Of a stretch of 36,968 nt of DNA, positions 3,978-30,999 are shown in pieces. The DNA comes from Anaerolineales bacterium (GTDB lineage Bacteria > Chloroflexota > Anaerolineae > Anaerolineales > UBA4823): contig JAFGBV010000235.1 in NCBI GenBank assembly GCA_016932955.1, forward strand, positions 1 through 36,968, in the 5' to 3' direction. A program made the position numbers and the translations under genes. The notes under the pieces are model-generated. The model was not told where the DNA came from. It saw nothing but the letters and a program-made list of their open reading frames with translations, and did no database searches. How positions within the stretch are numbered: position 1 is the stretch's first letter; every line of letters starts with the position of its first letter.

Positions 3978-4006
3978 TCGACATACTATCAATGATAGGC
4001 AATAAT
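3978..4006 (+). promoter_or_regulatory. Sigma-70-type promoter of the signalling operon
   Basis: TCGACA (3978-3983, 5 of 6 to the -35 consensus) is separated by exactly 17 bases from AATAAT (4001-4006, 5 of 6 to the -10 consensus). It lies about 55 bases upstream of the first gene of the operon. No other good promoter was seen on this strand between 3870 and 4061. Confidence 0.55.
3986..3998. promoter_or_regulatory. Palindromic operator candidate inside the promoter spacer
   Basis: CTATCA-A-TGATAG is a perfect 6-1-6 inverted repeat lying wholly between the -35 and -10 boxes. A protein bound there would be placed to control RNA polymerase. Candidates are the MerR-like HTH protein encoded just downstream and the divergent BTAD regulator. 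No binding partner can be shown from sequence. Confidence 0.45.
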
Positions 4007-4061
4007 ATCCAATAACGATAATCAATGCTCCCCAGGGGTACAACCCAGCAGGAGGCAGTTT

Positions 4062-4286
4062 ATGGAAAACCAGGTTTCCGAGATCATGACCATCGAGGAT
4101 GTAGCAGACTACCTGCGCATCCCTGTTTCGTCTGCTTACAAGCTCGCACAGCAGGGTAAGCTGCCCGGGCAAAAGATCGGGCGCCACTGGCGCTTTTACC
4201 GCCCATCGCTGATCGACTGGGTGGCAAGCGCCGCAGCCGAATCATCCCACACTCCATCATCCCAGTCTCGTACACCATCATCGTAA
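4062..4286 (+). CDS. Small MerR/excisionase-type helix-turn-helix protein
   Basis: A 74-residue protein almost entirely made of one HTH_17/excisionase-like (MerR-type winged helix) domain. It reads EIMTIEDVADYLRIPVSSAY, then KLAQQGKLPGQKIGRHWRFYR, then a short Ser/Thr/Pro-rich tail. Such domains bind DNA and, in stand-alone proteins, usually serve as local regulators or recombination directionality factors. No integrase is nearby, so a regulator is more likely. The ATG has an AGGAGG site about 7 bases upstream. It is the first gene of the plus-strand operon and the only obvious DNA-binding protein in it; the next gene starts 28 bases downstream. It may control the palindromic promoter just upstream. 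Confidence 0.85.
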   Translation: MENQVSEIMTIEDVADYLRIPVSSAYKLAQQGKLPGQKIGRHWRFYRPSLIDWVASAAAESSHTPSSQSRTPSS

Positions 4287-4314
4287 TACTCGCCTACACA
4301 CACAGGAGGTAAGC

Positions 4315-5415
4315 ATGCTTTATTCGTTCCGCAAAAATGTCCGTGCTTTATTCTTACCCTGGATACGCTCCCATGTTGAGGAAACCGGCCGGCAAGTTGC
4401 TCCTCCAGAACCCAAGTTTACTGAGGATCAGCTCATCACACCGCCTAAGCCATTTCATATCCGATGGACTACGGCTGACTTTCTCTACGTTTATCCCAAC
4501 ACGGCAGCCGTGCTTACTACCCATACTGGCGAGCAACTGTTTCCGGATGCGGGTGGCTTCCTGGAGAATATGGAAGTCGGGAAATATTCCTTACAATATG
4601 TCGATCTACGCGAAAGACGCAAGATTCTTAATAATATTCAAGACACCTCTGCTGAAGGCTCGCAAGTATCGATCTCTATTGCCGTCACTTATTTCGTGAC
4701 CCATCCCAAGCGTCTCCTGGCAATGGACAAACCCCTGCAAATCCTCTTCACCACTTGCACTGCTGCTCTGAAAAGCTTTATCCGTTCGCACGCCCATGAT
4801 GACCTGGTCTGTGTGCAATATAACACCCTCATCGAAGACTCAACAATAGCCAGGCACATCATTCAGCAGGTCAATCAAAACCAGGCATGCCGCGCATTCA
4901 CACTCCTGGATGTAAGCATCCTGGAGCGACAGGGAGACCCCAGGATCCTCGAGATCCAACGCGCTCGCCGGGTACAAGAGCAACAGAGTCTTAGCCGCCA
5001 GGAGGAGCTGCGCCAGCAGGAGAAGCTTGCTGACCAGGAAGAAAGCCTCGTGATTCGCGAGGGAGAAGTGAACATCCAGCGCATGATCCAGGAGCAGCGC
5101 ATGGAGGAAGCGCGGGCGATGATCGAGGCAACCCGCGCCGATATCGCCCAACGCATCCAATTCCAGTTGAACAAAGTTGAAGAGATGCGCCAGCTACCCG
5201 AACGCCAACATGAAATGTCACTCAAAGCATTAGATATCCGTTCAGAAGCGCTCCATGCACTGATGCAAATGTACACCACCCCTGGTTTCCCGCGCACCGT
5301 GGAAGACGCGCGCAGGCTTGAAGAGATGCTCCAAAAAATCTCAGATATCCCTTCATTGAATCATAGTGGGACGCTGACCGCTCTGAGCTCGACCCTCGAC
5401 GGATTATTGCCTTAA
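4315..5415 (+). CDS. SPFH/band-7-like coiled-coil protein
   Basis: A 366-residue protein. Residues about 40-200 resemble an SPFH (stomatin/prohibitin/flotillin) domain: a beta-rich part (VYPNTAAVLTTHTGEQLF, SVSIAVTYFVTHPKRLLA in outline) followed by the helical part with a shift to 'LLDVSILERQGDPRILEIQRA'. Residues about 205-300 are a long charged coiled coil rich in Glu, Gln and Arg (QEELRQQEKLADQEE). There is no N-terminal membrane helix, unlike classic flotillins, so any membrane link would be peripheral. SPFH proteins form oligomeric scaffolds. The ATG follows a strong AGGAGGT. In this operon it may organise the soluble kinases downstream. The SPFH assignment rests on pattern and layout, not a search. 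Confidence 0.65.
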   Translation: MLYSFRKNVRALFLPWIRSHVEETGRQVAPPEPKFTEDQLITPPKPFHIRWTTADFLYVYPNTAAVLTTHTGEQLFPDAGGFLENMEVGKYSLQYVDLRERRKILNNIQDTSAEGSQVSISIAVTYFVTHPKRLLAMDKPLQILFTTCTAALKSFIRSHAHDDLVCVQYNTLIEDSTIARHIIQQVNQNQACRAFTLLDVSILERQGDPRILEIQRARRVQEQQSLSRQEELRQQEKLADQEESLVIREGEVNIQRMIQEQRMEEARAMIEATRADIAQRIQFQLNKVEEMRQLPERQHEMSLKALDIRSEALHALMQMYTTPGFPRTVEDARRLEEMLQKISDIPSLNHSGTLTALSSTLDGLLP

Positions 5416-5448
5416 ATTTCAACACGTACCGATGGAGCGCGCTGACCA

Positions 5449-6606
5449 ATGAGAAAAGTTGCTGATATTTGGATCGATGTTGGGAAATACGGAAGCTCCC
5501 CAGATCTGGAGCAAGTTGCCCCCATGGATCTGACGCCTGGGTACGAATGGCAGGCCTTGTTTGCTTGCCAGATCGTAGTGCGGCCCTTTGCAGATCTGAT
5601 GCTGCTCAAGTGGGGTTTCAATGCTGCTGTCCTACTGCAAGAAGCCATGGACCGGCAGCGGTTATTCATCGAAGCCCAGCACCCCGGTGATGGCGCAATC
5701 CTGCTCGATTGGCAACGGAAACGCTCACTGGCCTTGCGCTGCCAGCATCACCCCGCCTGGAATGGACTCTTGCTCAGCCTGATCGGTAAAGTCAGCGCTG
5801 AAACCAAAGAGGCTGCACAGAGCGCTGCTTACCTCCATTGGAGTGAGACAAGATCTATATTCCCCTATGATTATGAGTTGTTACCCGCCGCCGATCCCCA
5901 GGATTACCGCCGGCTAACTGGCTGGGATATTCTTCACCAAGCAGGGAGCGTGGCCAGCCTGGTACAGGTGCGACGTTACGAGCAGTCTGTCCATTCGGGT
6001 AATGAACTCCTGCCTGTGAACGGCTTTTGGCAAAGTGCAGAGCGCTCAGATGAGCAGGTTTGGCGTACACTTGCCGGTTGTCCGGTCCCAGTTCTTCTTA
6101 ATATCACCGTTCGCCCAGAAATCATCCTGGATGCCGAACGGAAAGCCCTTTTAGCAGTCGAACAATCCGCCCATAAGATAGCCCAGGATAGCACGATGCC
6201 TCAGTTAGCACCTTATGCCTACTGGGCTGCCAAATTGGCTCAGCGCCGGGGCAGCATCTGGTCGCGTTCATTCGCTGCTCAGGTTAGCCTAGCATCCAGC
6301 AATCTATTACCAGAGTACATTCCTCGCACCATTGGAACAGCCATAACACGGTCAGCCAATTCGGAAACACTACCCGGTTATCAAGCAGTCTGGCCCTGCA
6401 ACAATAACGAAGCGCTTCTGTGGGCTTCCCACCTGTATTGGCTAGAATTGCTGCCTGCCAGCCAGGTATTCCCCTCAGGATGGGCACGGCTGCAAGATAT
6501 GATTGATCATGCAGAGGCACAAGCGCTTTTCCGTTTCCCTTACCCACCAGAGCCAGGACTACCCGGCGTGAAGTTTCTCTCCTCTCTGGGTGAGATAACC
6601 TCATGA
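5449..6606 (+). CDS. Unrecognised 385-residue protein of the signalling operon
   Basis: I do not recognise this protein as a named family. It is a soluble, mixed alpha/beta protein without signal peptide or membrane helices. The N-terminus reads MRKVADIWIDVGKYGSSPDL. Near the C-terminus (about 355-375) the segment AEAQALFRFPYPPEPGLPGV resembles the 'FRLP…GLPGI' element I associate with N-terminal domains of HerA/VirB4-like DNA-pumping ATPases, but there is no P-loop here and no such ATPase in the window. That link is a weak inference. A weak GGAG lies about 12 bases before the ATG. Its last four bases (ATGA) overlap the start of the S1-kinase gene, which implies translational coupling and a shared role. 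Confidence 0.8.
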   Translation: MRKVADIWIDVGKYGSSPDLEQVAPMDLTPGYEWQALFACQIVVRPFADLMLLKWGFNAAVLLQEAMDRQRLFIEAQHPGDGAILLDWQRKRSLALRCQHHPAWNGLLLSLIGKVSAETKEAAQSAAYLHWSETRSIFPYDYELLPAADPQDYRRLTGWDILHQAGSVASLVQVRRYEQSVHSGNELLPVNGFWQSAERSDEQVWRTLAGCPVPVLLNITVRPEIILDAERKALLAVEQSAHKIAQDSTMPQLAPYAYWAAKLAQRRGSIWSRSFAAQVSLASSNLLPEYIPRTIGTAITRSANSETLPGYQAVWPCNNNEALLWASHLYWLELLPASQVFPSGWARLQDMIDHAEAQALFRFPYPPEPGLPGVKFLSSLGEITS

Positions 6607-8843
6607 AAACCACAGACAACGTCGCAAAACTTATTCGCTTTCAGGTAACGCGCCACATTCCCTCAGGATTGCTAGTGGAGCTGGAGGATGGTAGCAATGG
6701 AATGATTCGCATCCGCGAGCTCTCCTGGGATCCTGAGGAGAGGCTTAATTGGCAAAGCTTGTTTCCCGTGGGCTGGCAAGCGCAAGCCGTCTTGACGGGA
6801 GAAGGAAGCGAAGATCGAAAGGAACTCAGCCTGCGCCTGGCTGAAAACGACCCGTGGGATACGATACCGGGGCGCTTCCGCAAGGGGCAAGTCGTGGAAG
6901 GGATTGTCACAGGAGTCGTGGCGTATGGCGCCTTTGTCGAATTCGCTTCAGGTATCACTGGGCTGCTCCACCATTCCGAGTTTCCCTCCTGGGTTAAGAA
7001 AGGCCCATTGGATGCTTTTTGGCCTGGCGATCATGTGCGGGTTTCCATCCAACAAATCGACCTTGTCAAGCGGCGTGTCAGCCTGGGTCTGGCAATGACC
7101 ACCTCCGCCCCTTCGCTCAGCGGATTTCCATCTGACGGCGGAATAAAATCTACTGTCATTACGCAACCTGACACCTACCATAGCGCGCTAAGTGATACCC
7201 TAGACCAGTTCCAGAGCAAGAACTACCCCAAGCGCCATTTTCTGATCGTTGAAGACGAGCCCGATCAATCCCATGCCATCGCCAATTGGCTCAAGCGCCT
7301 GGAACAGCGCGTAGATACCGCGGCCAGCGCCGAAGCTGCCCTGGAGCTGTTGGAGAAAACAAAACCCGACCTGGCCCTGATCGATGTCGGCTTGCCAGGA
7401 ATGAACGGTATCGAGCTTGGCAGGATAATGCTCGAGTTATCACCTCAGGTGCGCCTGATCATCACCACAGATTGGGCTCGCGCCGATGAGCACTGGAAAG
7501 AGATGGAAGAATTGCAAGGTCAGGGAGTTGAGCTGCTGGTGAAACCACTCCTGCCCGAAGACTTGCTCGATATTCTGCAGCGTAGTCGTAAGCGCCTGGC
7601 GCGTACTGAGGAACAGGTTTCTCTGCGCTCAAGCTTTGACTATGCACCCCTCACCACATTGAGTCATGAGCGCCCCACCCAAAACCTGCTCTCAGAATGC
7701 CGTGAGGCGACTGGCTTTGAGATCGCGATTCTTTTCAACCTCGATCCCATGCACCGCCAGGTGCAGATTTTACAGAGTGCCGGGGGCTTTGAGCCATCCC
7801 GCAATGCTGCACTTGGGTCATTGATCTACAGTCCTGTGCGGGATATTGCAGAAGATGGTGACATAGTGCAACTTGAGCAGTACACACTCGAACACCACGG
7901 GCGCTTCCGCTACTTGCTCGAGTTCTTCCCAGAGATGGCCGCCTGCCTGGGCGTCCCAGTATCGAGCGGGCGCCAGAGCCAATATGCACTTGTTCTGCTG
8001 GATCGTCGCGCCCGTCATATAACACCAGAAGTAGTACTGTTCACCAAAGCCACTGCCCTGGCTATCAGCGCTCTCCTGGAGCAAAAAGCATTTCGCGAGC
8101 AAGCCCTGGTAATCCAGCGCACTGCACTGATGGGTCATATCACCAGCGCTATGGTGCATGAGGTTAACAACATGCTCAGCCGGCTCAATGATAGGCTTAG
8201 AGGCCTGAGCAATCATCTGAGCAACGCCGATGAACCCGACACAACGCCAACCAAGTATAAAGGCCACCTCAAAGTTATCCGAGCAGAAATTGGCGAAGCC
8301 TATCGCGACCTGCGTGCGATTGCCAAATCAATGACCATGTTCGGGCGCATCATCATCAAAGACCAGACCGAGGTCCTGCGGGTTGATGAGATCATCAGTC
8401 AGGTGGTTGAGATCATGCGCGAGACGGGCAAGCGTTACCGTGTATCAATATCCGTGGATATGCCAGAGACATTGATGTTGATCCGCGGCCAGGCAGCCGC
8501 CCTCGAACACATCTTGATGAACCTGATCCTCAATGCCATCCAGCAGATCACCGAGACAGGTCGCGCCGAAGGTGGATGGGTTCAGATTCGTATCGAGTCG
8601 CAACGCGAAGCCAGCACTCCCAAACGCCTAACGATTCTGGTAGAAGATAATGGCCCTGGAATCCATACCAGCCTCTGGGAGCGTATATTCGAAGCGGGCT
8701 TTACAACACGCGCAGACGGTAGTGGCCTGGGACTTTACATTTGCCGCAGCCTTGTGGATGCTATGGGTGGGCAAATTCGTGTAAAAAAAAGCCTCGTCTT
8801 AGGAGGCAGTATCTTTGCCGTTGACCTGCCCTCTCGGTTCTAG
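6603..8843 (+). CDS. S1-S1-receiver-GAF-like-histidine kinase hybrid
   Basis: A 746-residue cytosolic hybrid sensor kinase with an unusual front end. Residues about 7-82 and 90-165 are two S1/OB-fold RNA-binding domains; the second is clear (VVEGIVTGVVAYGAFVEF, ITGLLHHSEFPSW, DHVRVSIQQIDLVKRRVSLG). Residues about 211-330 are a receiver with acidic pair E217/D218, phospho-acceptor D261 (LALIDVGLPG), T288 and K314. A GAF-like sensor region spans about 350-500. The histidine kinase core has H519 (SAMVHEVNNML), N644 in the N box, EDNGPGI at 681-687 and GSGLGL at 706-711, so it should be catalytically competent. No membrane segment is present. The start overlaps the previous stop as ATGA. The S1 domains suggest RNA or nucleic-acid sensing, which is inferred. 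Confidence 0.88.
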   Translation: MKTTDNVAKLIRFQVTRHIPSGLLVELEDGSNGMIRIRELSWDPEERLNWQSLFPVGWQAQAVLTGEGSEDRKELSLRLAENDPWDTIPGRFRKGQVVEGIVTGVVAYGAFVEFASGITGLLHHSEFPSWVKKGPLDAFWPGDHVRVSIQQIDLVKRRVSLGLAMTTSAPSLSGFPSDGGIKSTVITQPDTYHSALSDTLDQFQSKNYPKRHFLIVEDEPDQSHAIANWLKRLEQRVDTAASAEAALELLEKTKPDLALIDVGLPGMNGIELGRIMLELSPQVRLIITTDWARADEHWKEMEELQGQGVELLVKPLLPEDLLDILQRSRKRLARTEEQVSLRSSFDYAPLTTLSHERPTQNLLSECREATGFEIAILFNLDPMHRQVQILQSAGGFEPSRNAALGSLIYSPVRDIAEDGDIVQLEQYTLEHHGRFRYLLEFFPEMAACLGVPVSSGRQSQYALVLLDRRARHITPEVVLFTKATALAISALLEQKAFREQALVIQRTALMGHITSAMVHEVNNMLSRLNDRLRGLSNHLSNADEPDTTPTKYKGHLKVIRAEIGEAYRDLRAIAKSMTMFGRIIIKDQTEVLRVDEIISQVVEIMRETGKRYRVSISVDMPETLMLIRGQAAALEHILMNLILNAIQQITETGRAEGGWVQIRIESQREASTPKRLTILVEDNGPGIHTSLWERIFEAGFTTRADGSGLGLYICRSLVDAMGGQIRVKKSLVLGGSIFAVDLPSRF

Positions 8844-8859
8844 AATTAGGATGGATTGC

Positions 8860-11800
8860 ATGTGCCGTGTATTGATCCTCGATGACGAACTATACTTTGC
8901 CCGCAGCATAGCAGAAACTCTCAAGCGAGCTGGCGGGCCAGAACGCTACCGTACTTCCGTATTCACCCAGGTACCTGAAGCACTGCAAACCGCCAAGAAT
9001 GCTGCTGCATCTGGAAAGCCATTTGAGATATTGCTGATCGACCAGCGCCTAGAATCTGAGCTGGATGGCATCGAGGTGATGCAGGAGCTGCGCCGCATTA
9101 GCCCCGAATCAGATGCGATCATCTTTACCGGTTTTGATAGCGTGGAAGATGGGTTAAAAGCCTACGAAGCTGGGGCTTTTCGCTATCTACCCAAGATGTT
9201 TGATCGGAAAGAACTGCTCTTCATCATGCGTTTGCTCCGCCAGCAGCGAAAAGAGCAGCGCGAATATGGCTGGCAGGTGATTTTTGGGCAAATGGTTGAA
9301 GAAGCCCTACAAAAGAACACCTTTCACGAAGCTGCCCATGTGGTTGTGCTCTATTCGCTCCGACTGGGCTTTGAACGCGCGCACCTCCTCTGGCTGCCCA
9401 ACCGAGAGCATGCTCATCAAAAGGATTGCCTGGTGGGGATATGCGGTGCGGAGAGAAATTCCGAAGAGCCAACGCGCCATAACACGAGCAGAGACATCAT
9501 CGAAAATTTTACAAACCAGCTATACCCCTTACGCAATACGCCCTACTTCCAGCAAGCGGAAGACGCGCTTTCCCAGCATGATGCAGTATTTTTCCGTGGC
9601 GATAGCTTGCATCTTACCCGGGGGAGTATGCAATTGCACGGCTTCCACCTACCGCATAGTGAATGGGCTGTGTTGCCAATTTGGACCGGCTCAGATTTTC
9701 GCGGCATTCTGTTGTTAGATTTCGGCCAAAGTGATCGCAGCCTCGCCGAGCACGAGCGCACCCAGCTCAACCTATTTGCCCGCCAAGTATCAGTCGTCTT
9801 GGAAAGGGCGCGTCTCTTCGAACAAGAAGCTCGCTCGCGCCAGGAAGAGAATATCATCCGCACCATTGGACAAGAAATTACCACCCGTGCGGCTCTGGAT
9901 GATCTGCTCCCACTGCTCGAAGAAGTGCGCCGTCAGGTAGGCAAGCTGATGGATGTAAATAACTTCATCATCGTCCTAAAGGAAGAAGAAACCCGCCAGG
10001 TAGATTTTCGCCTGCAATATGAACGCGGCCAGCGCTCAGAACGCCACAAACGGCCTGCTAACCAGGGCTTATCCGGCTATCTATTGGAACAAAATGAAGT
10101 GCTGTTTATTCCTGATCATGTGAAAGAATTTCGCGAACAACGCGGCATCCCCCTCTATGGAACACAAGCCCAATCTTGGCTTGGCGTACCTCTACGGGTC
10201 AGTAATAATGTGATTGGCGGAATCATCGTTCAGAATTATGATCAACCACATACTTACACCGAGAGAGATAAGCGCTTGCTGATGGCAGTAGCAGAGCAGG
10301 TTGCCGGCGCGATCCAGATCAGCCGCCTGGCCGAGATGGAGCGAGAGGATACAGAGCGTATGCGAGTCCTGCAGCGCGCCAGCCTCGAAATGCTACGCAT
10401 CGCCAGTCAAAAGGAAGATCTCCGCCAGCAAGAAGAGATGCTCTGGTTCATTGTCCTCACCATTGCCACTTCAAACTTCGGGACACGTTTCAACCGCGCT
10501 TTGCTCTTCCTGGCTGAGAACGGCTACGAGCATATGGTCGGGAAAATGGGCATCGGCACCGAAGACCATCAAGCAGCCCAGGATGATTGGGAGAGAGATG
10601 AAAAACGCCATTATAGCTTTGAAATATTCCTCCAGGAGTTAGCTGCCGGCGTTATTAGGCACACGCCTTTTGAGTCCCTTGTAAAGGAGTGTTTGGTGAA
10701 GCTGGAAGGCAATGATGCTTTCCGCCAAGTCATGCAGAGCAACCAGCGTATCGCGGTGAGCAGCGATCAGATACTCACCCGCTTGCCAACCGACTTCAAC
10801 CAACGCTTTGCTTTTTCAGAATGTGTTGTTCTGCCTCTGCGGGCTGGCGACACAGCCATTGGCGTCGTCGTCGTCGATAACAAGCATGATGGGAAAGCCC
10901 CACAAGAGAAAATGCTCAACCGCTTGGAGACGCTGCTCAACAATGCTGGCTTAGTCTGGGAAACATTGCGCCAGCGCTACCAGCGTGACATTCTGCTCGA
11001 AACGACCTATGCGATCATGGTTGAAGCCGGACGCATCCCGTTGGCTGATACCTTGCAGCGTATCTGCGAGGCTGCCCGCGCCAATTCCGGAGCTGACTGG
11101 GCGATCATCTATCCCCTCAAACCCGGTGGGAGCCTGTATGAATATGATGTTGCCAATATCTGCTATGCAGGGCAATTACGCCAGCCAATCAAGGAAGTTG
11201 TCAAAGAAAAAACTCGCCAGAAGGGTGCTTCTGTGCGCATCCTGCAAACAGGGCTGGTAGTAGTACCCGATATCGATCTTGAGAAAGCTGCTTCCAGTCA
11301 AGACCGTTTGGCAAACCACAAATTCATCCAACGCGAAGGCGTTAAGGCTCTGCTGGGGGTGGCAATCCGCGATGAACGCACAGCGCAGCCATTGGGTGTA
11401 CTATATCTGGATTACCGCGTCAAGCATTTGTTTTCAGATGCAGACATCCGCCTGGCGCAATCCTTTGCCACGCTAGCTGCCATTGCTATCACAAACGCCC
11501 GGCAGATCATCGATATACGCAGTGACGCAGAAAGCCTCCGTCAGCGCGAGCGAGAGATATCCTATCGCATGCTGGAGTCTGCTCTGGCTGGCGAAACAGA
11601 AGGCAACGTAATCCAAGCCTTGGTGTCGAATACCGCTGAAGCGCTTGCTTTGAGTGGCACTGATATCCATACCTCGCTGATCATGCAGCGCTGGCAGTCA
11701 GCCTCCCTGGATCACGAGCCGCGAGGCAAGTTAGAAAACTATTCGATTTCGCTAGCCGGACAGTTGGTAAAAGAACCCCTCAGGTTTCCAACCCGCAGGT

Positions 11801-13734
11801 CAGTGCGTAAAGCAATTCTGGAAAAAACATCTATATTGTCCTCAGATCAATTCCACGCTTATGTGCCGGTCAGCCTGGGCATGAGTGTCTTTGGAGTTTT
11901 CCACGCTTGCAGCACAGAGCAGCCCCTTCGCCAGGAGCAAATAGAACTGCTTGAGCGCTTCGCCCAGGTATCATCCCTTGTCCTTGACAACATCCAGCGA
12001 CACGATCATCTGGTCAGCGTACTGGATGCCGCTAAGGTAGTTACCGAACCCACGGACCTGATACAAACCTTCACCGCTGTGATGCGCACATTGCGAAAGG
12101 TATCCCCCGAACTCTCCGCTTTCACCTTGTGGTACGTGGATGCAGAAAGTGAAAACGGTTCACTGAAAATGGGAGCATCGTTTGGGGTTCATCAGATCAA
12201 AGGGCAACGCCCCTGGAACGAGGGAGAGCGCACCCAGGAAGTGATCCAGCATGTAATGAACCGGGCTGAGCCAATCTGGGCAGATGATATCCATACCCAC
12301 GAGGAGCTAAATGGGCGCTTTGTTCAGAGCCAGAAGATCATTTCGGTAGCAGCATTCCCGTTACGAGCAGATAAAGAAAAAACGGGAGCAATGTTCTTCA
12401 ACTACCGCCGGCCACACCATTTCACCATTGAAGAACGCACGATCTTCCCTTTGCTGGCTGAGATTGTTGCCGCCAGCATCCGCGATGCCACCCGCCTGGA
12501 GACAGAACGCGCGCAGCGCGAACACCTGAATATTGTTCTTGAAACCACTGAAACGATTGCCACCATACTTGATTTAAAAACAATCCTGCAGCGCGTATTA
12601 TCCAGGCTGGGTGAATTATTTGAAGGCGCTACGCTTTGCCTGATGAATTATGATGAGGACGCAAATTGCTTGGAGTTTGCCCCAGAGTCATTGGCCTTTT
12701 ACCCCATTGACGAGCCCGATCATGTCAACCTGCTTCGTCTGCCGCTGTATGGGCCTTCAATTGCCTGCCGGGTTGCGCGCGAGACGCTTGAAAAGCGCAC
12801 GATGGTGGTTGAAAATATCAACGATGTAACCAAGGATAAGGATTACCTGCGCATGCGTCAAAGCACGCGCTCAGAGCTTTGCGTGAGTCTGGTAAGCAGC
12901 GAAGAAAAACTCCTTGGCATCCTGGCGCTGGAACGTGCCCAATCACCTGGTTTCAACCAGGGTGATATCGACTTGGTGAAGATGATCGCACGCCAATTTA
13001 GTCTGGCAATCGAGCGTGCCCACCAAAGCGATGAGCTGAGTTTCAAATCTACCGTCGCTGCAGCATACGTCTGGGCAGCAGAGATCGCCCACGATATAAA
13101 AAGTGAAGTCGGCAAGATCAAGTCTTGCGCCTATCTGGCAAGTGAGATGGCCAACGAGCCTCACAAAGTGCGTGAATATACTGGACAGATCGTCCAAAGT
13201 GCAGATGTTCTTACGAATGTTGGTCCCTGGAAAAATCCCGAACCACAAATCCTTGCCTTGGACGAATCGATCCGCAAGCATGTGAGTGCCTTCGCCAACC
13301 AGCGCAATATTACACCCGTATTTGATCTTCACTGTCCCAAGATCTTAATCCAGGTCAACCCGCTTGAGTTCCAACGTGTCCTGCGCCAGTTGGTGCGCAA
13401 CGCAGCCCATGCCATGCAAGAAACCGATGAGAAAATCTTGACCATTCGTTCTTGGCAAAGTGATCTCAAGCAAGTCGAAATCCAATTTGAAGATCGCGGC
13501 CCCGGCGTGGATAATGAAGTGCGCCCATCTATCTTCTTGCGCCCGGTAACCACCAAAGGAAAGTTTGGTGGTTATGGCTTGCTGATCACCCGTCAGATGG
13601 TGGAAGATATGGGTGGAAAGATTCGGCTACTGACCCACCACCCAGATAGTGGAGCTGTCTTTTCAATCAAGCTGCCGATTGCTTCCCAAACCCACCGGGA
13701 TAGGCGCAGAAATGGGCATCCCGATCAAGGATGA
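8860..13734 (+). CDS. Receiver/multi-GAF giant hybrid histidine kinase
   Basis: A soluble kinase of about 1624 residues. It opens directly with a receiver (MCRVLILDDELYFARS; acidic D8/D9, acceptor D61 in LLIDQRL, T90, K112). About seven GAF-type sensor domains follow in series, roughly 150-330, 335-515, 520-720, 720-885, 900-1050, 1050-1225 and 1230-1390. Each ends in a typical 'LLxxxAxQxxxAIxxAR'-style helix. The C-terminal kinase has an H box (AEIAHDIKSEVGKI), an N box (VRNAAHAM), a G1 box (FEDRGPGV) and a glycine-rich G2 region (KFGGYGLLITRQMVEDMGG). The start was set at the ATG at 8860 because AGGATGG lies 5 bases before it. Upstream in-frame ATGs at 8851 and 8815 lack a spaced site, and the latter lies inside the previous gene. 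No membrane helix; ligands unknown. Confidence 0.88.
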   Translation: MCRVLILDDELYFARSIAETLKRAGGPERYRTSVFTQVPEALQTAKNAAASGKPFEILLIDQRLESELDGIEVMQELRRISPESDAIIFTGFDSVEDGLKAYEAGAFRYLPKMFDRKELLFIMRLLRQQRKEQREYGWQVIFGQMVEEALQKNTFHEAAHVVVLYSLRLGFERAHLLWLPNREHAHQKDCLVGICGAERNSEEPTRHNTSRDIIENFTNQLYPLRNTPYFQQAEDALSQHDAVFFRGDSLHLTRGSMQLHGFHLPHSEWAVLPIWTGSDFRGILLLDFGQSDRSLAEHERTQLNLFARQVSVVLERARLFEQEARSRQEENIIRTIGQEITTRAALDDLLPLLEEVRRQVGKLMDVNNFIIVLKEEETRQVDFRLQYERGQRSERHKRPANQGLSGYLLEQNEVLFIPDHVKEFREQRGIPLYGTQAQSWLGVPLRVSNNVIGGIIVQNYDQPHTYTERDKRLLMAVAEQVAGAIQISRLAEMEREDTERMRVLQRASLEMLRIASQKEDLRQQEEMLWFIVLTIATSNFGTRFNRALLFLAENGYEHMVGKMGIGTEDHQAAQDDWERDEKRHYSFEIFLQELAAGVIRHTPFESLVKECLVKLEGNDAFRQVMQSNQRIAVSSDQILTRLPTDFNQRFAFSECVVLPLRAGDTAIGVVVVDNKHDGKAPQEKMLNRLETLLNNAGLVWETLRQRYQRDILLETTYAIMVEAGRIPLADTLQRICEAARANSGADWAIIYPLKPGGSLYEYDVANICYAGQLRQPIKEVVKEKTRQKGASVRILQTGLVVVPDIDLEKAASSQDRLANHKFIQREGVKALLGVAIRDERTAQPLGVLYLDYRVKHLFSDADIRLAQSFATLAAIAITNARQIIDIRSDAESLRQREREISYRMLESALAGETEGNVIQALVSNTAEALALSGTDIHTSLIMQRWQSASLDHEPRGKLENYSISLAGQLVKEPLRFPTRRSVRKAILEKTSILSSDQFHAYVPVSLGMSVFGVFHACSTEQPLRQEQIELLERFAQVSSLVLDNIQRHDHLVSVLDAAKVVTEPTDLIQTFTAVMRTLRKVSPELSAFTLWYVDAESENGSLKMGASFGVHQIKGQRPWNEGERTQEVIQHVMNRAEPIWADDIHTHEELNGRFVQSQKIISVAAFPLRADKEKTGAMFFNYRRPHHFTIEERTIFPLLAEIVAASIRDATRLETERAQREHLNIVLETTETIATILDLKTILQRVLSRLGELFEGATLCLMNYDEDANCLEFAPESLAFYPIDEPDHVNLLRLPLYGPSIACRVARETLEKRTMVVENINDVTKDKDYLRMRQSTRSELCVSLVSSEEKLLGILALERAQSPGFNQGDIDLVKMIARQFSLAIERAHQSDELSFKSTVAAAYVWAAEIAHDIKSEVGKIKSCAYLASEMANEPHKVREYTGQIVQSADVLTNVGPWKNPEPQILALDESIRKHVSAFANQRNITPVFDLHCPKILIQVNPLEFQRVLRQLVRNAAHAMQETDEKILTIRSWQSDLKQVEIQFEDRGPGVDNEVRPSIFLRPVTTKGKFGGYGLLITRQMVEDMGGKIRLLTHHPDSGAVFSIKLPIASQTHRDRRRNGHPDQG

Positions 13735-13750
13735 ACAACGAAAGAGGAAG

Positions 13751-15439
13751 ATGAGCGCTGATCAGATCTGCCTTGCAGGAATACCGCGTGTCCTCTTCAT
13801 TGACAACGATCCTGGAACGCGCCAGATCAACCAAGATCTCCTTGCCTACTGGTCATGCCAGCCCATCTTGGCCACCGGGGAAGGAAAAGCCCTACTCGAG
13901 GATGCCATCCAAAAAGCGCGCCAATATCGCTGCCAATTAGCACTGGTGGATATGCGACTGCGCGATCATACCGATGATGATGATTACAGCGGGTTGGAGC
14001 TAATCCCCCAATTGGTTCCCACACAGGTAATTGTTTTTAGTGCTTTTGCCAATAAGGCGACTGCTTTTCGTATGGCAATGGAAAAAGGAGCTCTTAGCCT
14101 GGTGGATAAGGCAGATGGTCCACTTGATTTGAAAATCGAATTGGAAAAAGCGCTCCAGAAGTTATGCGCACAACGTAGCAGCATCTTGATCGAGTCCAGG
14201 CAAGTAATTGAGCAGATAGCCGCCATCTTAGCTACCAATCACGCAACCTTCCTGAAAGATCAGGTGCTGGATACTCTCGTGCGTCTCTTTCCAAAAGCCT
14301 CTCACCTGCAATTGGAATTCCTTGACCAAGGGTTATCTCCCCCATCCCTGACCTCAGTTCCTCGTCCTCGTTCTGCTATCTTAAAAGTGGTTGAAGACGA
14401 TCGCCAGCCTGTCATCGTAAAACTTGGGCGCGCTCACAAACTCCAAAAAGAAGTCAGCAATTACGAAGATCACATCCGAGGCTACCTAGTCGGTTTCTTT
14501 CATCCGCAATTACAGACCTCGGCAGTTCTTTGGGATGTTGGCGGGGCGATTTACTCCCACCTTGGCTCATCTGCCAATGTGCAGACTTTCTCCCAGTTTT
14601 ATGCTTCGGCGAGCATTCCCGAGATCCAGCACTGCCTGGAGCAGTTCTTTAGCACAACCTGGTCCGCCCTCTATCGGAATACCTGTGAATGGCAGAAGAC
14701 AACCGCCTTCAGGGCATATAGCGATGTATGGGGTAACAACTGGTATGATGAGCGCATCTGCTCATTTTCTGCACCGGAAATAAGAAACGCAATGGGAGTT
14801 GAGCAAGGGAAAATACTTGGCGCCAGAGACCCTATTGCCTGGCTCAAGGAACATGTGCTTGCCGAGACGGAAAACCCACAGGCTACCCTAGAAGATGTGA
14901 AATTTGCTGTTACCCACGGCGACCTGCACGGGGACAATTTGCTGATTGACGATAAACACAATGCCTGGGTAATCGATTACGAGCGCAGCGGGAAAGGCCC
15001 CATCCTGCAAGATTTTGTGGAGCTGGAGGCCGACATCCTGACCCGTCTCACTCATGGGGCAGATTTCCAGACCTTCTATCAGCTATGCATCCATGTCGCC
15101 CGCCCGCAGAGGTTAGATGCCTGCCTGGATGGCGATCAAATACATTCCCACCAACCGCCAAGCGGTAATTTCAACAAGGAATTGAAGATCATCGCGGTCC
15201 TGCGTGGGCTGGCGCGAGAAATGACTGGCATTGAGGATACCCGCCAGTATCTCCTGGGTTTGCTCTATAACACCCTCTTCCGTGCTACAATCATCGATAG
15301 CCAGCTAGATCTTGCCCAATATCATCGCGTGATGATGCTCGCCAGTATCATTTGCCATCGCCTTGATCACTGGGACAAACCCTGGCCTCCATCTAATTGG
15401 CCTCTGATAAAAACATCGCCATACCCCCCTGAGAGGTGA
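13751..15439 (+). CDS. Receiver domain fused to an APH-fold kinase
   Basis: A 562-residue response regulator whose output domain looks like a phosphotransferase. The receiver (about 12-140) has D18/D20, acceptor D67 (LALVDMRL), S97 and K120. Residues about 195-450 match the aminoglycoside/choline-kinase (APH) fold: Lys in VIVKLG (K224), a possible partner E234, the catalytic loop HGDLHGDN (389-396, catalytic D391), and the metal-binding D409 in VIDYE. The motifs are intact, so kinase activity is likely; the substrate is unknown. The 'ternary complex associated' kinase-like domains of bacterial conflict systems are a family to compare against, a guess from memory. The start at 13751 follows AAAGAGG. 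In-frame starts at 13649 and 13712 lie inside the previous gene and lack a good site. Confidence 0.83.
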   Translation: MSADQICLAGIPRVLFIDNDPGTRQINQDLLAYWSCQPILATGEGKALLEDAIQKARQYRCQLALVDMRLRDHTDDDDYSGLELIPQLVPTQVIVFSAFANKATAFRMAMEKGALSLVDKADGPLDLKIELEKALQKLCAQRSSILIESRQVIEQIAAILATNHATFLKDQVLDTLVRLFPKASHLQLEFLDQGLSPPSLTSVPRPRSAILKVVEDDRQPVIVKLGRAHKLQKEVSNYEDHIRGYLVGFFHPQLQTSAVLWDVGGAIYSHLGSSANVQTFSQFYASASIPEIQHCLEQFFSTTWSALYRNTCEWQKTTAFRAYSDVWGNNWYDERICSFSAPEIRNAMGVEQGKILGARDPIAWLKEHVLAETENPQATLEDVKFAVTHGDLHGDNLLIDDKHNAWVIDYERSGKGPILQDFVELEADILTRLTHGADFQTFYQLCIHVARPQRLDACLDGDQIHSHQPPSGNFNKELKIIAVLRGLAREMTGIEDTRQYLLGLLYNTLFRATIIDSQLDLAQYHRVMMLASIICHRLDHWDKPWPPSNWPLIKTSPYPPER

Positions 15440-15444
15440 TAAAT

Positions 15445-16476
15445 ATGCATGAAATCGGTCCACAACATTCTCTCGCGTACCGAAAGGAAGTGCTGACTCC
15501 CCTGTTCAAGCTAATCCAAAGCATGGAATCTTTTTCACTGATTGGCTCAGCAAGCATGGGTAAAACACGCCTGCTGGATTTTATGATGCGCCTCGATGTT
15601 CAAAAGCATTACTTTGGCGATGTGACTGAGCCTCCCTGGATCGTGCGCGTGGATTGCAATCGCGTTCACGAGGTCAGCGCTTGGGCTTTTTACGAGCTTC
15701 TTCTCATCAGCCTCTCGCAAGCTTGTGGTAAAAATCCCAAAGCCAGCCCCCTGCGTGGCAAGTTCATCGATCTGGAAACGCAGTTGATCGCCAATCCACA
15801 ACCCCTTCTCGCTCAACGTTTCTTCGAGTTGGTAATGAACATGCTTTGCACAGAACAAGAATTGCAGGTCTGTCTCTTGCTGGATGATTTCGATCTTCTT
15901 TATAGCAAGCTGCCCGCATCTGTTCTGGCAAATCTACGCGGTGTTCGTGATGCCAATAAATATTGTATGTGCTACGCCCTGGTCTTGCGCAATCTACCAG
16001 AACAGCTGCGCCCTCCAGATGATTGCGAAGCCTTCTATGAGTTATTCTCACGCTCTCGGATAGGCCTGGCTCCTTACACCCCAGAAGATGCTGCTGTAAT
16101 GCTTCAGCAGCTTGAGGCACGACGCAATCATCATATAACCCCTCCTGCGCGCGATTCCGTGATCGCCCTCAGTGGTGGGCATCCAGGATTGACCCAGGCA
16201 ATCTATCAACTGATGGTCGAAAAAAACGCAAAAGACGAACTACCCGGTGATCTGCGGTGGATATCCAGCCAGAAGAATGTTCTCGAAGAATGCCGCAAGC
16301 TTTGGGAAGGTCTCACCGACATGGAACGCGCCGGGCTATTAAATCTCATATCAGGGAAACCCCTCTCCGAGTACACCCGCGACCTGCTCGAACTGAAACA
16401 ATTAATTCGCCCCGACGGTAGTCAGGGGCATCTCTTTAGTCCTGTATTTGAACAGTACCTGCAAAAGCTTCGGTGA
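15445..16476 (+). CDS. AAA/STAND-like P-loop ATPase
   Basis: A 343-residue ATPase with Walker A GSASMGKT (34-41) and Walker B CLLLDDFDLL near 143-150. A helical lid follows (APYTPEDAAVMLQQLEARR … ALSGGHPGLTQAIYQLM, typical of STAND/ORC-like sensor-2 regions). The C-terminal 70 residues look like a winged helix (LTDMERAGLLNLISGKPLSE). It resembles the NTPase modules of signalling or conflict systems, used as a switch. The ATG at 15445 is preferred because AGGTGA lies 5 bases upstream; a GTG at 15436 overlapping the previous TGA is the alternative. It overlaps the next gene by 4 bases, so it belongs to the operon and probably works with the kinases upstream. Confidence 0.82.
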   Translation: MHEIGPQHSLAYRKEVLTPLFKLIQSMESFSLIGSASMGKTRLLDFMMRLDVQKHYFGDVTEPPWIVRVDCNRVHEVSAWAFYELLLISLSQACGKNPKASPLRGKFIDLETQLIANPQPLLAQRFFELVMNMLCTEQELQVCLLLDDFDLLYSKLPASVLANLRGVRDANKYCMCYALVLRNLPEQLRPPDDCEAFYELFSRSRIGLAPYTPEDAAVMLQQLEARRNHHITPPARDSVIALSGGHPGLTQAIYQLMVEKNAKDELPGDLRWISSQKNVLEECRKLWEGLTDMERAGLLNLISGKPLSEYTRDLLELKQLIRPDGSQGHLFSPVFEQYLQKLR

Positions 16477-18962
16477 AAGCGAAAAAATCCTTAAGATGCT
16501 GGGCTGTAATATTTCTGGTAGGTTTGATTGTTGGAAGCGTAGGATTCTACATTTGGCTCTTCCACGATCTGCCATCTCTGGATAGCCTGCCCGAAAGCCT
16601 GAACATTCCCAGCATTCGCATCACTGACCGCTACGGGCGCACTCTTTACGAGATTTTACCCGAAGAAGGCGGACGGCACGCTCCCCTCCCGCTGGAACGA
16701 ATACCCCTTGCCTTGCGCCAGGCTACAATCGCCACGGAAGATGCCAATTTTTACCACAACCCGGGGGTGGATTTCGCCGGTATTTTACGCGCTTTTTGGA
16801 TTAACTTGCGCGGTGGCGAAACCCTAGCCGGAGGCAGCACGATCACCCAACAGGTGGCGCGCAACCTCCTCTTTAGCACGGAAGAACGGATGGAGCGCAG
16901 CCTGCGGCGTAAATTACGCGAGGCCTTCTTAGCCTGGCAACTTGCCCGGTCATTCTCCAAAGACGAGATCCTGGCGTTGTATCTCAATCAGATTAACTAT
17001 GGAGGTATGGCTTATGGCGCAGAAGCCGCAGCGCAAACCTATTTCGGCAAACCGGCTACAGAGCTGGACCTGGCGGAATGCGCCTTGTTGGCAGGATTGC
17101 CCCAAGCCCCAGCATTATACAACCCCTTTACTGATCTCCAGGCCGCTAAAGAACGGCAATATACCGTGCTGCGTTTAATGGAAGAGCAGGGCTATATCAC
17201 AGCAGAGCAGAGCGCCCTGGCCGAAAACGAGCCCTTGATCCTGGCTGCTACGCCTTATCCAATTGAAGCGCCTCACTTCTCCCTCATGGTCAGTGCTGAG
17301 TTAGACAGCCTGTTTGCCTCTGAAGAAATTCGCCAATCAGATGGACTGATTGTGCGCACCACCCTCGACCTGGACTGGCAAACTATTGCCGAGCGCGCTG
17401 TTAACCGCCAGATCGAAGCTCTTCAAGATAGTCCCGATGGTCTGGGTCACAATGTAAATAGCGCTGCCTTGATCGCTCTTGATCCCACCCAGGGTGACAT
17501 CCTGGCGATGGTAGGTAGTCCAGATTACTTTACCCAGGAAAACGCTGGTGCAATCAATATGACAATGATCCCGCGCCAACCCGGCTCATCGATCAAACCG
17601 ATCGTGTATGCTGCCGCGCTAGATGCCGACCAGCCCAATCCTTGGACTGCTGGCACAATGATCCTGGATGTGAGAACCTCTTTCCTTACTAACGATGGCA
17701 AAGCATATACTCCAGAGAATTACGATCGATTGGAACATGGTCCAGTGTTGGTACGCCAGGCACTAGCCTCATCTCTGAATATTCCAGCTGTCGCAACCTT
17801 AGATCATATTGGACTCGATGCCATGGTTAATATGGCTGGAAAACTGGGTATCAGTACGTTGCGTGCTCCGCAGGAGTACGATTTATCCCTCGCCCTGGGT
17901 GGCGGTGAAGTGCGCCTGGCAGAGTTGACTGCTGCTTATGCTGTTTTTGCCAATGGCGGTCACCGCATAACCCCACGGTCAATCCTTGAAATCACGGATC
18001 TGCAAGGCAAAGTAGTTTACACACCCCCTGAATCGCCCGCTGTTCAGGTGATCGATGCGCGGCTAGCATGGTTGATCACCGATATCTTAAGTGATGACGA
18101 CGCACGCACGCTGGGTTTTGGCAGCAACAGCCTGCTCAATATCGGACGCCCAGCCGCAGTCAAAACCGGTACAACCACTAATTTCCACGATAACTGGACA
18201 ATTGGTTACACATCCGATTTGGTTGTGGGAGTATGGGCTGGCAATACAGATTATGCTGCCATGCGGGATGTCACTGGCCTCACTGGTGCTGCTCCCATCT
18301 GGCACGAGTTCATGCGTGCCGTGCTCACAGGTAAACCTGCCCTGGATTTCTCCCAACCGCCCGGGTTAGTACAGATAGAAATCTGCACCCTATCCGGCCT
18401 ATTACCCACACCCGATTGTCCCTATACCCGGCTAGAGTGGTTCATTGAGGGAACGCAACCTTCCAATATCGACAACCTTTATCAAACCGTTGAGATTGAC
18501 CGAGCTACCGGAAGGGTGGTTAGCGCATCCACACCACCTGAGCATATCACCACAGTTTTAGCCCTTGATCTACCTCCCCAGGCGCATTCCTGGGCGCGTA
18601 GCCAGGGGCTGCTTCTCCTTTCGGATTTATCCGCCTTTGACCTCGAGAGCACACCAAGCTTACCATCTACTGCATCTTTCAGCCTTTCAGTCAGTGTACC
18701 ACCCGCGTATAGCATCTTTCAGATCACATCAGCACTGCCATCTGATTCCCAACGCATCCCAATTGAAGCAATCGGTCCCGCCGATCTGCAAGAAGTCTCG
18801 TTATGGATAGATGATCTCCTGCTGGCAAGCTTCACCCAGCCGCCCTATCGCACCTGGTGGGCTTTGCAAGCAGGAGATCACCAAGTTTGGGCTTCCGCAA
18901 TTACCACATCCGGAGAAACCCTGACCAGTACCGCGATCACATTTTCAGTGATCGTCCCCTAG
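16473..18962 (+). CDS. pbpC: Class A penicillin-binding protein, PBP1C type
   Basis: An 829-residue bifunctional peptidoglycan synthase. It has one N-terminal membrane anchor (about 9-30). The GT51 glycosyltransferase domain (about 45-220) carries catalytic E89 in ATEDANFY and the GGSTITQQVARNL block. The transpeptidase domain (about 290-620) has SxxK at 372-375 (SSIK), SLN at 434-436 and KTG at 564-566. A C-terminal beta-sandwich follows the 'EICTLSGLLPTPDCP' element typical of PBP1C. All catalytic residues are present. The GTG start overlaps the TGA of the ATPase gene as GTGA, with no separate Shine-Dalgarno, so it is translationally coupled. It ends 27 bases from a convergent alpha-2-macroglobulin gene, a known partner of PBP1C. 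It is the last gene of the operon; no terminator is visible. Confidence 0.88.
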   Translation: MKAKKSLRCWAVIFLVGLIVGSVGFYIWLFHDLPSLDSLPESLNIPSIRITDRYGRTLYEILPEEGGRHAPLPLERIPLALRQATIATEDANFYHNPGVDFAGILRAFWINLRGGETLAGGSTITQQVARNLLFSTEERMERSLRRKLREAFLAWQLARSFSKDEILALYLNQINYGGMAYGAEAAAQTYFGKPATELDLAECALLAGLPQAPALYNPFTDLQAAKERQYTVLRLMEEQGYITAEQSALAENEPLILAATPYPIEAPHFSLMVSAELDSLFASEEIRQSDGLIVRTTLDLDWQTIAERAVNRQIEALQDSPDGLGHNVNSAALIALDPTQGDILAMVGSPDYFTQENAGAINMTMIPRQPGSSIKPIVYAAALDADQPNPWTAGTMILDVRTSFLTNDGKAYTPENYDRLEHGPVLVRQALASSLNIPAVATLDHIGLDAMVNMAGKLGISTLRAPQEYDLSLALGGGEVRLAELTAAYAVFANGGHRITPRSILEITDLQGKVVYTPPESPAVQVIDARLAWLITDILSDDDARTLGFGSNSLLNIGRPAAVKTGTTTNFHDNWTIGYTSDLVVGVWAGNTDYAAMRDVTGLTGAAPIWHEFMRAVLTGKPALDFSQPPGLVQIEICTLSGLLPTPDCPYTRLEWFIEGTQPSNIDNLYQTVEIDRATGRVVSASTPPEHITTVLALDLPPQAHSWARSQGLLLLSDLSAFDLESTPSLPSTASFSLSVSVPPAYSIFQITSALPSDSQRIPIEAIGPADLQEVSLWIDDLLLASFTQPPYRTWWALQAGDHQVWASAITTSGETLTSTAITFSVIVP

Positions 18963-18989
18963 CACGAAACCTCTCCCGTGTATGGTAGC

Positions 18990-25052: not shown

Positions 25053-25132
25053 ATGGGACCTCCAGATCTGGTAGAGAAGCAAAACGCAGATATGGTTAAA
25101 ACGCCGGCAATCAGCAGAGAGTTCCAGGCTGC

Positions 25133-30910: not shown

Positions 30911-30999
30911 GGGCCTCCTCCTTGAACAAATCAGGACAGATATCAAAGAGAGTTGCATTAATCATACCCGAATTTGTCCATTTAGGGGAGAAAATCCTA

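Follow-up and report, generated by a model that had tools for sequence, protein, structure and literature searches.

A six-gene unit of histidine kinases, a receiver-linked APH-fold kinase and a STAND-like ATPase in Anaerolineae as a possible stress or counter-invader device

Six plus-strand genes at positions 4315-16476 of the window, the whole stretch of 36,968 nucleotides of Anaerolineales DNA that was analysed, constitute a conserved unit. They encode an SPFH protein, a 385-residue protein (U385), two histidine kinases (S1-REC-HK and REC-GAFn-HK), a REC-TCAD9/APH kinase and a STAND-like ATPase. We give an even chance to the proposition that these genes make up one cytosolic signalling system, which would most likely serve in stress or against invaders, through dormancy or cell death, by way of an output that can be exchanged; this reading is preferred because the outputs differ by branch, being SPFH/U385, TIR, CHAT, caspase or DNA-binding.

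The open reading frames bear out the description in an earlier note of eight closely packed plus-strand genes, three pairs of which overlap by 4 bases, while two gaps measure 28 and 33 bases and, when ATG starts are used, two more spacings measure 7 and 16 bases. The outermost two, neighbours outside the conserved part, encode a 74-aa HTH_17 protein (4062..4286; Pfam HTH_17 2e-14) and a PBP1C-type peptidoglycan synthase (16473..18962; Transgly 3e-60, Transpeptidase 2e-21). Between them lie the genes for the SPFH/Band-7-like protein of 366 aa (4315..5415), U385 (5449..6606), the S1 kinase (6603..8843), the REC-GAF array-histidine kinase (8815..13734, from TTG 8815 or ATG 8851), REC-TCAD9 (13649..15439, from GTG 13649 or ATG 13751) and the AAA_16/STAND-like ATPase (15436..16476). 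For REC-TCAD9, ATG 13751 is the likely start because the database copy has 562 aa. Hydropathy finds no membrane-helix-like segment in genes 1-7, the kinases and receivers included, as had been noted before, and one such segment in PBP1C.

The six-gene order is seen again in Anaerolineae. It is complete (SPFH-U385-HK-HK-REC-TCAD9-ATPase) in five of 11 loci of a genome scan and in L066, while in L061-L063 the unit is interrupted by contig ends, the genes missing from it being placed at the end of a contig from that genome. SPFH precedes U385 in all 11 genome-scan loci and also in L066, L067 and L068; in L002 and L005, SPFH, U385 and the ATPase are present with no kinases adjacent to them. Since the order is repeated in other genomes, chance is excluded for six of the eight genes, but not for the first and the last. 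REC-TCAD9 was found in 30 of 396 genomes of the class Anaerolineae, to which genome G011 belongs, at 33 places, of which 31 were read and two G015 fragments were left out; the same gene run holds a histidine kinase in 27 and a STAND ATPase in 19 of these 31. Relatives of the S1 kinase occur in 23 of the 396 genomes (21 of the 23 rows align across the S1 part), and 14 genomes are common to both families (Fisher 4e-12, kinship not corrected), one locus holding both genes in 11 of the 14. The other nine genomes have an S1-kinase relative and, at the threshold applied, no match for REC-TCAD9. Of a phylum-level sample of 24 genomes, 19 were covered, 17 of them newly added and two already in the set. 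Viral or plasmid spread of the unit was considered and rejected, as U385 relatives were found neither in viral_contigs nor, by tblastn, in plasmids.

The SPFH assignment is borderline in the window, where Band_7 scores 23.4 of the 23.6 bits demanded by Pfam (6.7e-5); the L068 homologue reaches 47.8 bits. Over its full length, the modelled U385 chain corresponds in fold to residues 27-422 of TrwK (PDB 7o43, 8rtb), at 8-10% identity to VirB4/TrwK and a Foldseek TM-score to the query of only 0.43, so that its sub-domains are arranged otherwise. U385 thus shares, on its model, the N-terminal-domain fold of the VirB4/TrwK ATPase of type IV secretion; unlike that enzyme, it ends ahead of the ATPase part, with no P-loop motif and no ATPase Pfam match, and no secretion genes were noticed in the unit. 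A U385 match is present in 19 class genomes and stands alone beside SPFH in four of them (G011, G190, G222 and G070; the G070 match runs across a stop). In the remaining 15 the frames are of 759-1016 aa in 14 and of 302 aa in one, ten of the 15 were retrieved, and DUF87 was found in all four of these ten that were scanned with Pfam. The idea that SPFH corresponds to the gene upstream of such long VirB4-like ATPases was dropped, the hhalign probability being 0.1% (six of ten loci). Four of those six upstream proteins have, by eye, zinc-ribbon-like cysteine motifs.

The ATPase of the window scores 26.3 of 32.6 bits with AAA_16 (1.2e-5), below the cut-off, and nSTAND1 is matched only by its relatives; the P-loop is present in 13 of 13 copies. 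A C-terminal wHTH is missing from all 13 SPFH/U385-linked ATPases, that of the window included, and is found at 18 of the 22 loci that lack SPFH/U385 (Fisher 1.6e-6). This count covers genes within four of the centre plus the window, takes near-copies (L121-123, L130-131, L140/142) singly, includes among the four lacking wHTH a truncated gene (L152), and leaves out the STAND genes of L135, L141, L146 and L150, which lie in longer runs and none of which was called wHTH. The 13 ATPases are mostly of one clade, and the absence may be a single event.

Three receivers and two histidine kinases had been claimed, and the analysis agrees: Pfam finds HATPase_c in two proteins, the receivers of both kinases are above the cut-off, and the third receiver, that of REC-TCAD9, with 23.7 of 30.2 bits, is below it and backed by Foldseek matches to receiver structures. 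The domain counts proposed for the kinases were less accurate. In the cytosolic S1 kinase (Pfam S1 4.6e-17, Response_reg 2e-18, HATPase_c 4e-21) Pfam finds one S1 domain in the window, where two had been proposed, and two in the divergent L067 copy, and the supposed GAF has no Pfam match at E 0.1 in the window, the L067 copy having one. The array of the likewise cytosolic REC-GAF-HK (Response_reg 4e-14, HATPase_c 4e-15), supposed to hold seven GAF domains, comprises five GAF stretches by Pfam or six pieces by a local profile; both scans were begun at base 8824, an in-frame non-start codon, so that residue numbers are shifted by a few. The kinase boxes (His, Asn and Gly in the S1 kinase) and the receiver Asp/Lys are intact in nine of nine copies of either kinase. 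In REC-TCAD9 (Pfam TCAD9 PF19974 1e-30 and APH 2e-9, both above the cut-off), D101, K154, K258, H423, D425, N430 and D443 are invariant in 39 aligned rows, and an HGD-x4-N motif, a Mg-binding Asp and the APH Pfam match mark an APH-fold kinase.

What varies among relatives is the output. The most frequent recognised one is the DNA-binding domain on the ATPase described above. Death-type domains occur at three of the 31 class places (TIR in L125, CHAT in L127 and a REC-CHAT as the next gene in L144), four REC-TCAD9 proteins and one neighbour having been scanned with Pfam; caspase is found in L117 and caspase-EAD7 in P0149. Death-type effectors that differ behind a shared core are thus seen in relatives, in a minority of loci. 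In the REC-TCAD9 tree, the SPFH/U385-linked clade (100/100) is grouped with CHAT, caspase, EAD7 and DUF4062 fusions (98/97), and TIR, CHAT and caspase fusions appear on several branches; the fused P rows of this tree were picked for being fused, unfused homologues being left out, and L067, which has SPFH and U385, stands outside the SPFH label. The L067 REC-TCAD9 is distant in the tree, carries a wHTH and has no recognisable kinase motif.

The first proposal, a system of eight genes with a cell-wall synthase as its last member, is not upheld, while the part of that proposal which saw a multi-protein set stands, as the six genes stay together in relatives. The suggested comparison across relatives with or without the PBP gene was run and found the unit held together with PBP1C not beside it: tblastn at E 1 over 17 relative loci gave no convincing match for PBP1C (best L066, E 0.006 across 102 aa that fall within the kinase region) or HTH_17 (L004 E 0.055, L001 E 0.94) and no match for alpha-2-macroglobulin. 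As a control, SPFH was sought in the same way at the 14 loci having it and was recovered at 12 (L004 and L067 were missed), and the ATPase was likewise recovered at 12; an HTH of 74 aa could escape such a search, and L001 and L007 are short upstream of SPFH. Both flanking genes were accordingly rejected as parts of the unit. The four-base overlap of the ATPase and PBP1C genes, together with the fact that membranes are a common site of action of SPFH proteins, would fit an envelope-stress system in which the relay acts through SPFH at the membrane and through PBP1C in wall repair. We consider this very unlikely, as PBP1C was not detected next to the unit in relatives and, in 10 of the 12 loci with sequence past the ATPase, the following gene lies on the opposite strand. 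PBP1C, moreover, abuts convergently a minus-strand gene (18990..25082) for a bacterial alpha-2-macroglobulin with Big_5 domains (A2M, A2M_BRD, TED and bMG domains), which is likely its partner: in the available text of PMC4498604 the two are a known pair in E. coli (pbpC-yfhM). The genes adjoin likewise in the window (16473-25082), but convergently and not in one operon, and the pair is a neighbour of the relay, not a member; PBP1C is probably a mere neighbour of the unit. Even less credible is an antibiotic-modifying kinase under two-component control, conferring aminoglycoside resistance. APH(3')-Ia is among the nearest solved folds of the REC-TCAD9 model (pLDDT 84.4; Foldseek E 3e-6), yet APH-type rows show only ~10-16% identity, the kinase is joined to a receiver here and to TIR, CHAT or caspase in relatives, and L127, L135 and L067 yielded no HGD motif.

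The chief rival is a plain cytosolic response to stress or nutrients, in which a phosphorelay kernel acts usually on transcription via STAND-wHTH, the branch of the window has swapped in a membrane-organising SPFH output and the death fusions are rare side-uses. The wHTH-bearing STAND genes at 18 of the 22 loci having a nearby STAND gene without SPFH/U385, the TCAD9-wHTH proteins of L067 and L151 and the retention of the kernel in genomes where no death domain is seen speak for it, and we regard it as possible, if doubtful. Against it, all 13 SPFH/U385 ATPases lack wHTH, so that no member of the unit in the branch of the window is a known DNA-binding output, and the death-type fusions are spread over several branches. 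The TIR, CHAT and caspase domains of some relatives favour the "stress or defence" role suggested earlier, and the unit may be a self-protection or cell-suicide system, with infection as a conceivable cause. In the stress or counter-invader device that we prefer, the two histidine kinases would be activated by ligands bound to the GAF array or, through the S1 part, by the state of an RNA or of the ribosome, and phosphoryl groups would move via receivers to that of REC-TCAD9, thereby licensing the APH-fold kinase to act on a putative substrate. The STAND-like ATPase would serve as a threshold switch that, with this kinase, fires the output: in the branch of the window SPFH and its VirB4-N-terminal-domain-like partner U385, probably as a ring or patch on a membrane or target. 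Other branches would use TIR, CHAT or caspase domains joined to REC-TCAD9, or else a DNA-binding domain borne by the ATPase. The residues needed for a phosphorelay, the APH-fold kinase and the ATPase, all of which the earlier note had joined in one pathway, are present, and we infer the regulation itself. A narrower version can be offered only tentatively: a device that brings about death or dormancy and is gated by histidine kinases. In it, an S1 kinase sensing RNA and a GAF kinase responding to several ligands would together phosphorylate the receiver of REC-TCAD9, an enzyme resembling antibiotic kinases, which with the STAND switch would trigger the assembly of an SPFH ring bearing a stand-alone VirB4 N-terminal domain. 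Such a ring would be an effector type that was not found described in the open-licence literature; related systems use caspase, TIR or CHAT.

The unit and its relatives place a full set of two-component parts ahead of effector kinds known from conflict systems, and two-component signalling could thus gate regulated cell death. The TIR, CHAT, caspase, DNA-binding and SPFH/U385 variants provide a natural test set, and the stand-alone VirB4-type domain next to an SPFH protein is a new effector candidate.

It had been stated that no described system has this composition. The six-gene set was indeed not found described in the open-licence literature, and PADLOC models gave no match to the SPFH, U385, REC-TCAD9 or ATPase proteins of the window, but TCAD9, STAND, Band-7, APH, caspase and TIR are known from published predicted conflict systems. 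The available portions of Kaur et al. 2020 (PMC7159879) and 2021 (PMC8195603) describe predicted conflict systems of multicellular prokaryotes with apoptosis-like effectors, whose switches are chaperones, GTPases or proteases and whose effectors include APH kinases and Band-7 domains. The likeness lies in a signalling or switch core with exchangeable outputs and in the use of STAND NTPases, caspase, TIR and EADs; domains associated with ternary complexes or effectors are present here as well (TCAD9 of REC-TCAD9 and EAD7 on the relative P0149). TCAD9 is linked to vWA-MoxR-VMAP in the accessible part of PMC10910872, a tie that its Pfam name also makes; the term TCAD is absent from the available main text of the two Kaur papers. 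Membership in a MoxR-vWA ternary system was rejected, as no MoxR or vWA Pfam match was obtained among the window proteins scanned. The unit differs from the Kaur systems in being without MoxR, vWA and VMAP and in having two histidine kinases with receivers, while the portions available report histidine kinases as absent among vWA-associated effectors (PMC7159879) and describe receivers as independent of histidine kinases (PMC8195603). With hybrid two-component phosphorelays the unit shares chains of receivers and histidine kinases with intact residues; it departs from them in that an S1 domain would serve as an input, the outputs are in separate proteins and the last receiver would drive an APH-fold kinase (TCAD9) in place of a DNA-binding domain.

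The genes for an SPFH protein, a 385-residue protein with a predicted VirB4/TrwK N-terminal-domain fold (U385), a soluble S1-REC-HK kinase (S1 kinase), a REC-GAF-HK kinase (GAF kinase), a receiver fused to an APH-fold kinase (REC-TCAD9) and a STAND-like ATPase constitute a real, conserved and uncommon unit of six genes at 4315-16476. The earlier note had proposed an eight-gene operon running from an HTH gene to PBP1C (3978..18962), and ORF reading indeed recovered all eight closely spaced plus-strand genes, the first seven of which encode no membrane-helix-like segment. The window appears to span an entire contig, since the database copy of its own protein is on a contig of 36,968 bases. Pfam recognized HTH_17 in the HTH protein, Band_7 (marginally) in SPFH, S1, receiver and histidine-kinase ATPase domains in the S1 kinase, a receiver, a GAF array and a kinase ATPase in the GAF kinase, TCAD9 and APH with a receiver under the cut-off in REC-TCAD9, AAA_16 under the cut-off in the ATPase, and transglycosylase and transpeptidase in PBP1C; U385 had no Pfam match. 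The unit is limited to six genes because HTH, PBP1C and alpha-2-macroglobulin gave at most weak, chance-like matches beside it in 17 relative loci, because the ATPase is followed by an opposite-strand gene in 10 of the 12 loci with sequence there, and because PBP1C faces an alpha-2-macroglobulin gene (18990-25082); according to PMC4498604, yfhM commonly shares an operon with pbp1C. The proposed ending in a cell-wall synthase is thus probably wrong. A SARP/LAL-like BTAD-AAA_16-TPR-HTH regulator (222-3869, minus strand) is divergent from the unit, and the gene at 26987-30958 (minus strand) encodes 1,323 aa that include Peptidase_M23 and PPC domains.

An alignment of 30 U385 sequences, used as a query against one genome per species, retrieved 11 loci, one from a record labelled Nitrospirae and the other ten from records labelled Anaerolineae, Anaerolineales or Chloroflexi; in all of them SPFH comes before U385. 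The complete order SPFH, U385, S1 kinase, GAF kinase, REC-TCAD9, ATPase is present in five (L001, L003, L004, L010, L011); in L006-L008 the contig stops at or within the S1 kinase and the missing genes lie at another contig end of the same genomes (L061-L063), in L009 a single short REC-HK gene replaces both kinases, and L002 and L005 contain SPFH, U385 and ATPase only. A class-wide search (Anaerolineae) contributed three further loci: L066, where the order is complete, the divergent L067, and L068, which has just SPFH and U385. The gene set does stay together in relatives, a check the earlier note had suggested. In the tree, the full unit of the Nitrospirae-labelled record (L004) falls within the Anaerolineae copies, reflecting either lateral transfer or a mis-binned contig. 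Class genomes also contain frames of ~750-1000 aa (L069-L078) in which a U385-like part is followed by a DUF87/HerA-type ATPase, several with a zinc-ribbon-like protein immediately upstream.

The kernel around REC-TCAD9 is more widespread than the unit of the window. At E up to 1e-20, 30 of 396 class genomes have a REC-TCAD9 match, 33 places in all, and among the 31 places read the same gene run includes a histidine kinase in 27 and a STAND ATPase in 19, with an S1 kinase nearby in 11 and SPFH with U385 in two. S1-kinase relatives occur in 23 of the 396 genomes; 14 of these also have REC-TCAD9 (Fisher 4e-12, relatedness not corrected), and nine have no REC-TCAD9 match at the threshold used; coordinates place both genes in one locus in 11 of the 14. 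Other arrangements include a second kind of front pair, which precedes GAF-HK, REC-TCAD9 and STAND-wHTH (wHTH, winged DNA-binding domain) in L142 (12332-15263) and L140 and in L142 consists of a Peptidase_M29-match protein and an nSTAND-type ATPase, genes of similar size being present in L146 and L150. There are also giant TCAD9 proteins that include STAND-like and TPR parts, with further STAND genes alongside (L113, which has an S1-REC-HK gene nearby, and L112), and a protein that joins a TCAD9 kinase to Clp N-terminal domains (L110:9011-10933).

The outputs change from locus to locus. In L117 the S1 and GAF kinases are followed by REC-TCAD9-caspase (PF00656, E 9e-20) and STAND-wHTH; in L125 the same two kinases precede a REC-TCAD9 with a terminal TIR (E 2e-23); REC-TCAD9 ends in CHAT in L127 (E 9e-11) and is followed by a REC-CHAT gene in L144 (E 5e-34); the database protein P0149 is REC-TCAD9-caspase-EAD7; and L065 combines STAND-wHTH, two CHAT proteins and one TCAD9 protein. 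The last part of the L127 protein (L127:9089-11935, residues 853-910) also matches a PADLOC ThsB-type model (E 1e-19). Death-type domains occur in at least 3 of 31 class places, a lower bound since only five proteins of this set were Pfam-scanned. More often the output is an OmpR-type wHTH, which terminates the STAND protein in 18 of 22 loci without SPFH/U385 versus 0 of 13 with them; in L126, on another branch, a STAND protein without wHTH precedes a gene that matches Band_7 marginally.

In a midpoint-rooted tree of 53 REC-TCAD9 rows, the eleven SPFH/U385-labelled proteins make up a single clade (100/100), in which the window branches off first and which lies within a 16-row clade (98/97) holding CHAT, caspase, EAD7 and DUF4062 fusions. 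The tree shows kinship to the fusions, but as the four database rows were chosen for being fused and unfused homologues were left out, a nearer unfused protein may exist. L117 and L125 are placed elsewhere, and therefore death-domain fusions arose more than once. The REC-TCAD9 of L067 is distant from the SPFH/U385 clade, and the SPFH/U385 module is thus linked to two distant kernels.

The phosphorelay reading of the earlier note seems right in outline. For each of the two kinases, 9/9 copies conserve the kinase boxes and the receiver Asp and Lys, and all 13 of 13 ATPases keep the P-loop (Walker B is DD in the window versus DE in the others). Across 39 REC-TCAD9 rows the catalytic residues of receiver and APH part do not vary, and the predicted REC-TCAD9 model contains a receiver and an APH-like kinase. 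The two soluble kinases would hand phosphoryl groups on to REC-TCAD9, the STAND-like ATPase would act as a threshold switch, and SPFH/U385 would be the output. The kinase part may be a mere scaffold in some relatives, since the usual motif was not found in L127, L135 and L067; the L067 protein (L067:3220-5172) is REC-TCAD9-like, ends in a wHTH and adjoins SPFH and U385. The unit probably serves in cell death or against invaders, with plain stress regulation as the main rival reading, and its link to death-domain systems makes it more interesting.

The predicted conflict systems described by Kaur et al. (2020, 2021) include STAND, caspase, TIR, EADs, APH kinases and Band-7. According to the 2020 paper, vWA-associated effectors include no histidine kinases, and the 2021 paper portrays receivers as acting independently of them. 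Neither main text uses the name TCAD, whose tie to conflict systems comes from its name in Pfam and from the legend of a figure in PMC10910872. No PADLOC model matched the window's SPFH, U385, REC-TCAD9 or ATPase, its S1 kinase matched two through the receiver only, and no description of the six-gene set was found in the literature searched. With two histidine kinases and neither MoxR nor vWA, the unit does not belong to the ternary systems, but it seems to function as a core whose outputs can be exchanged.
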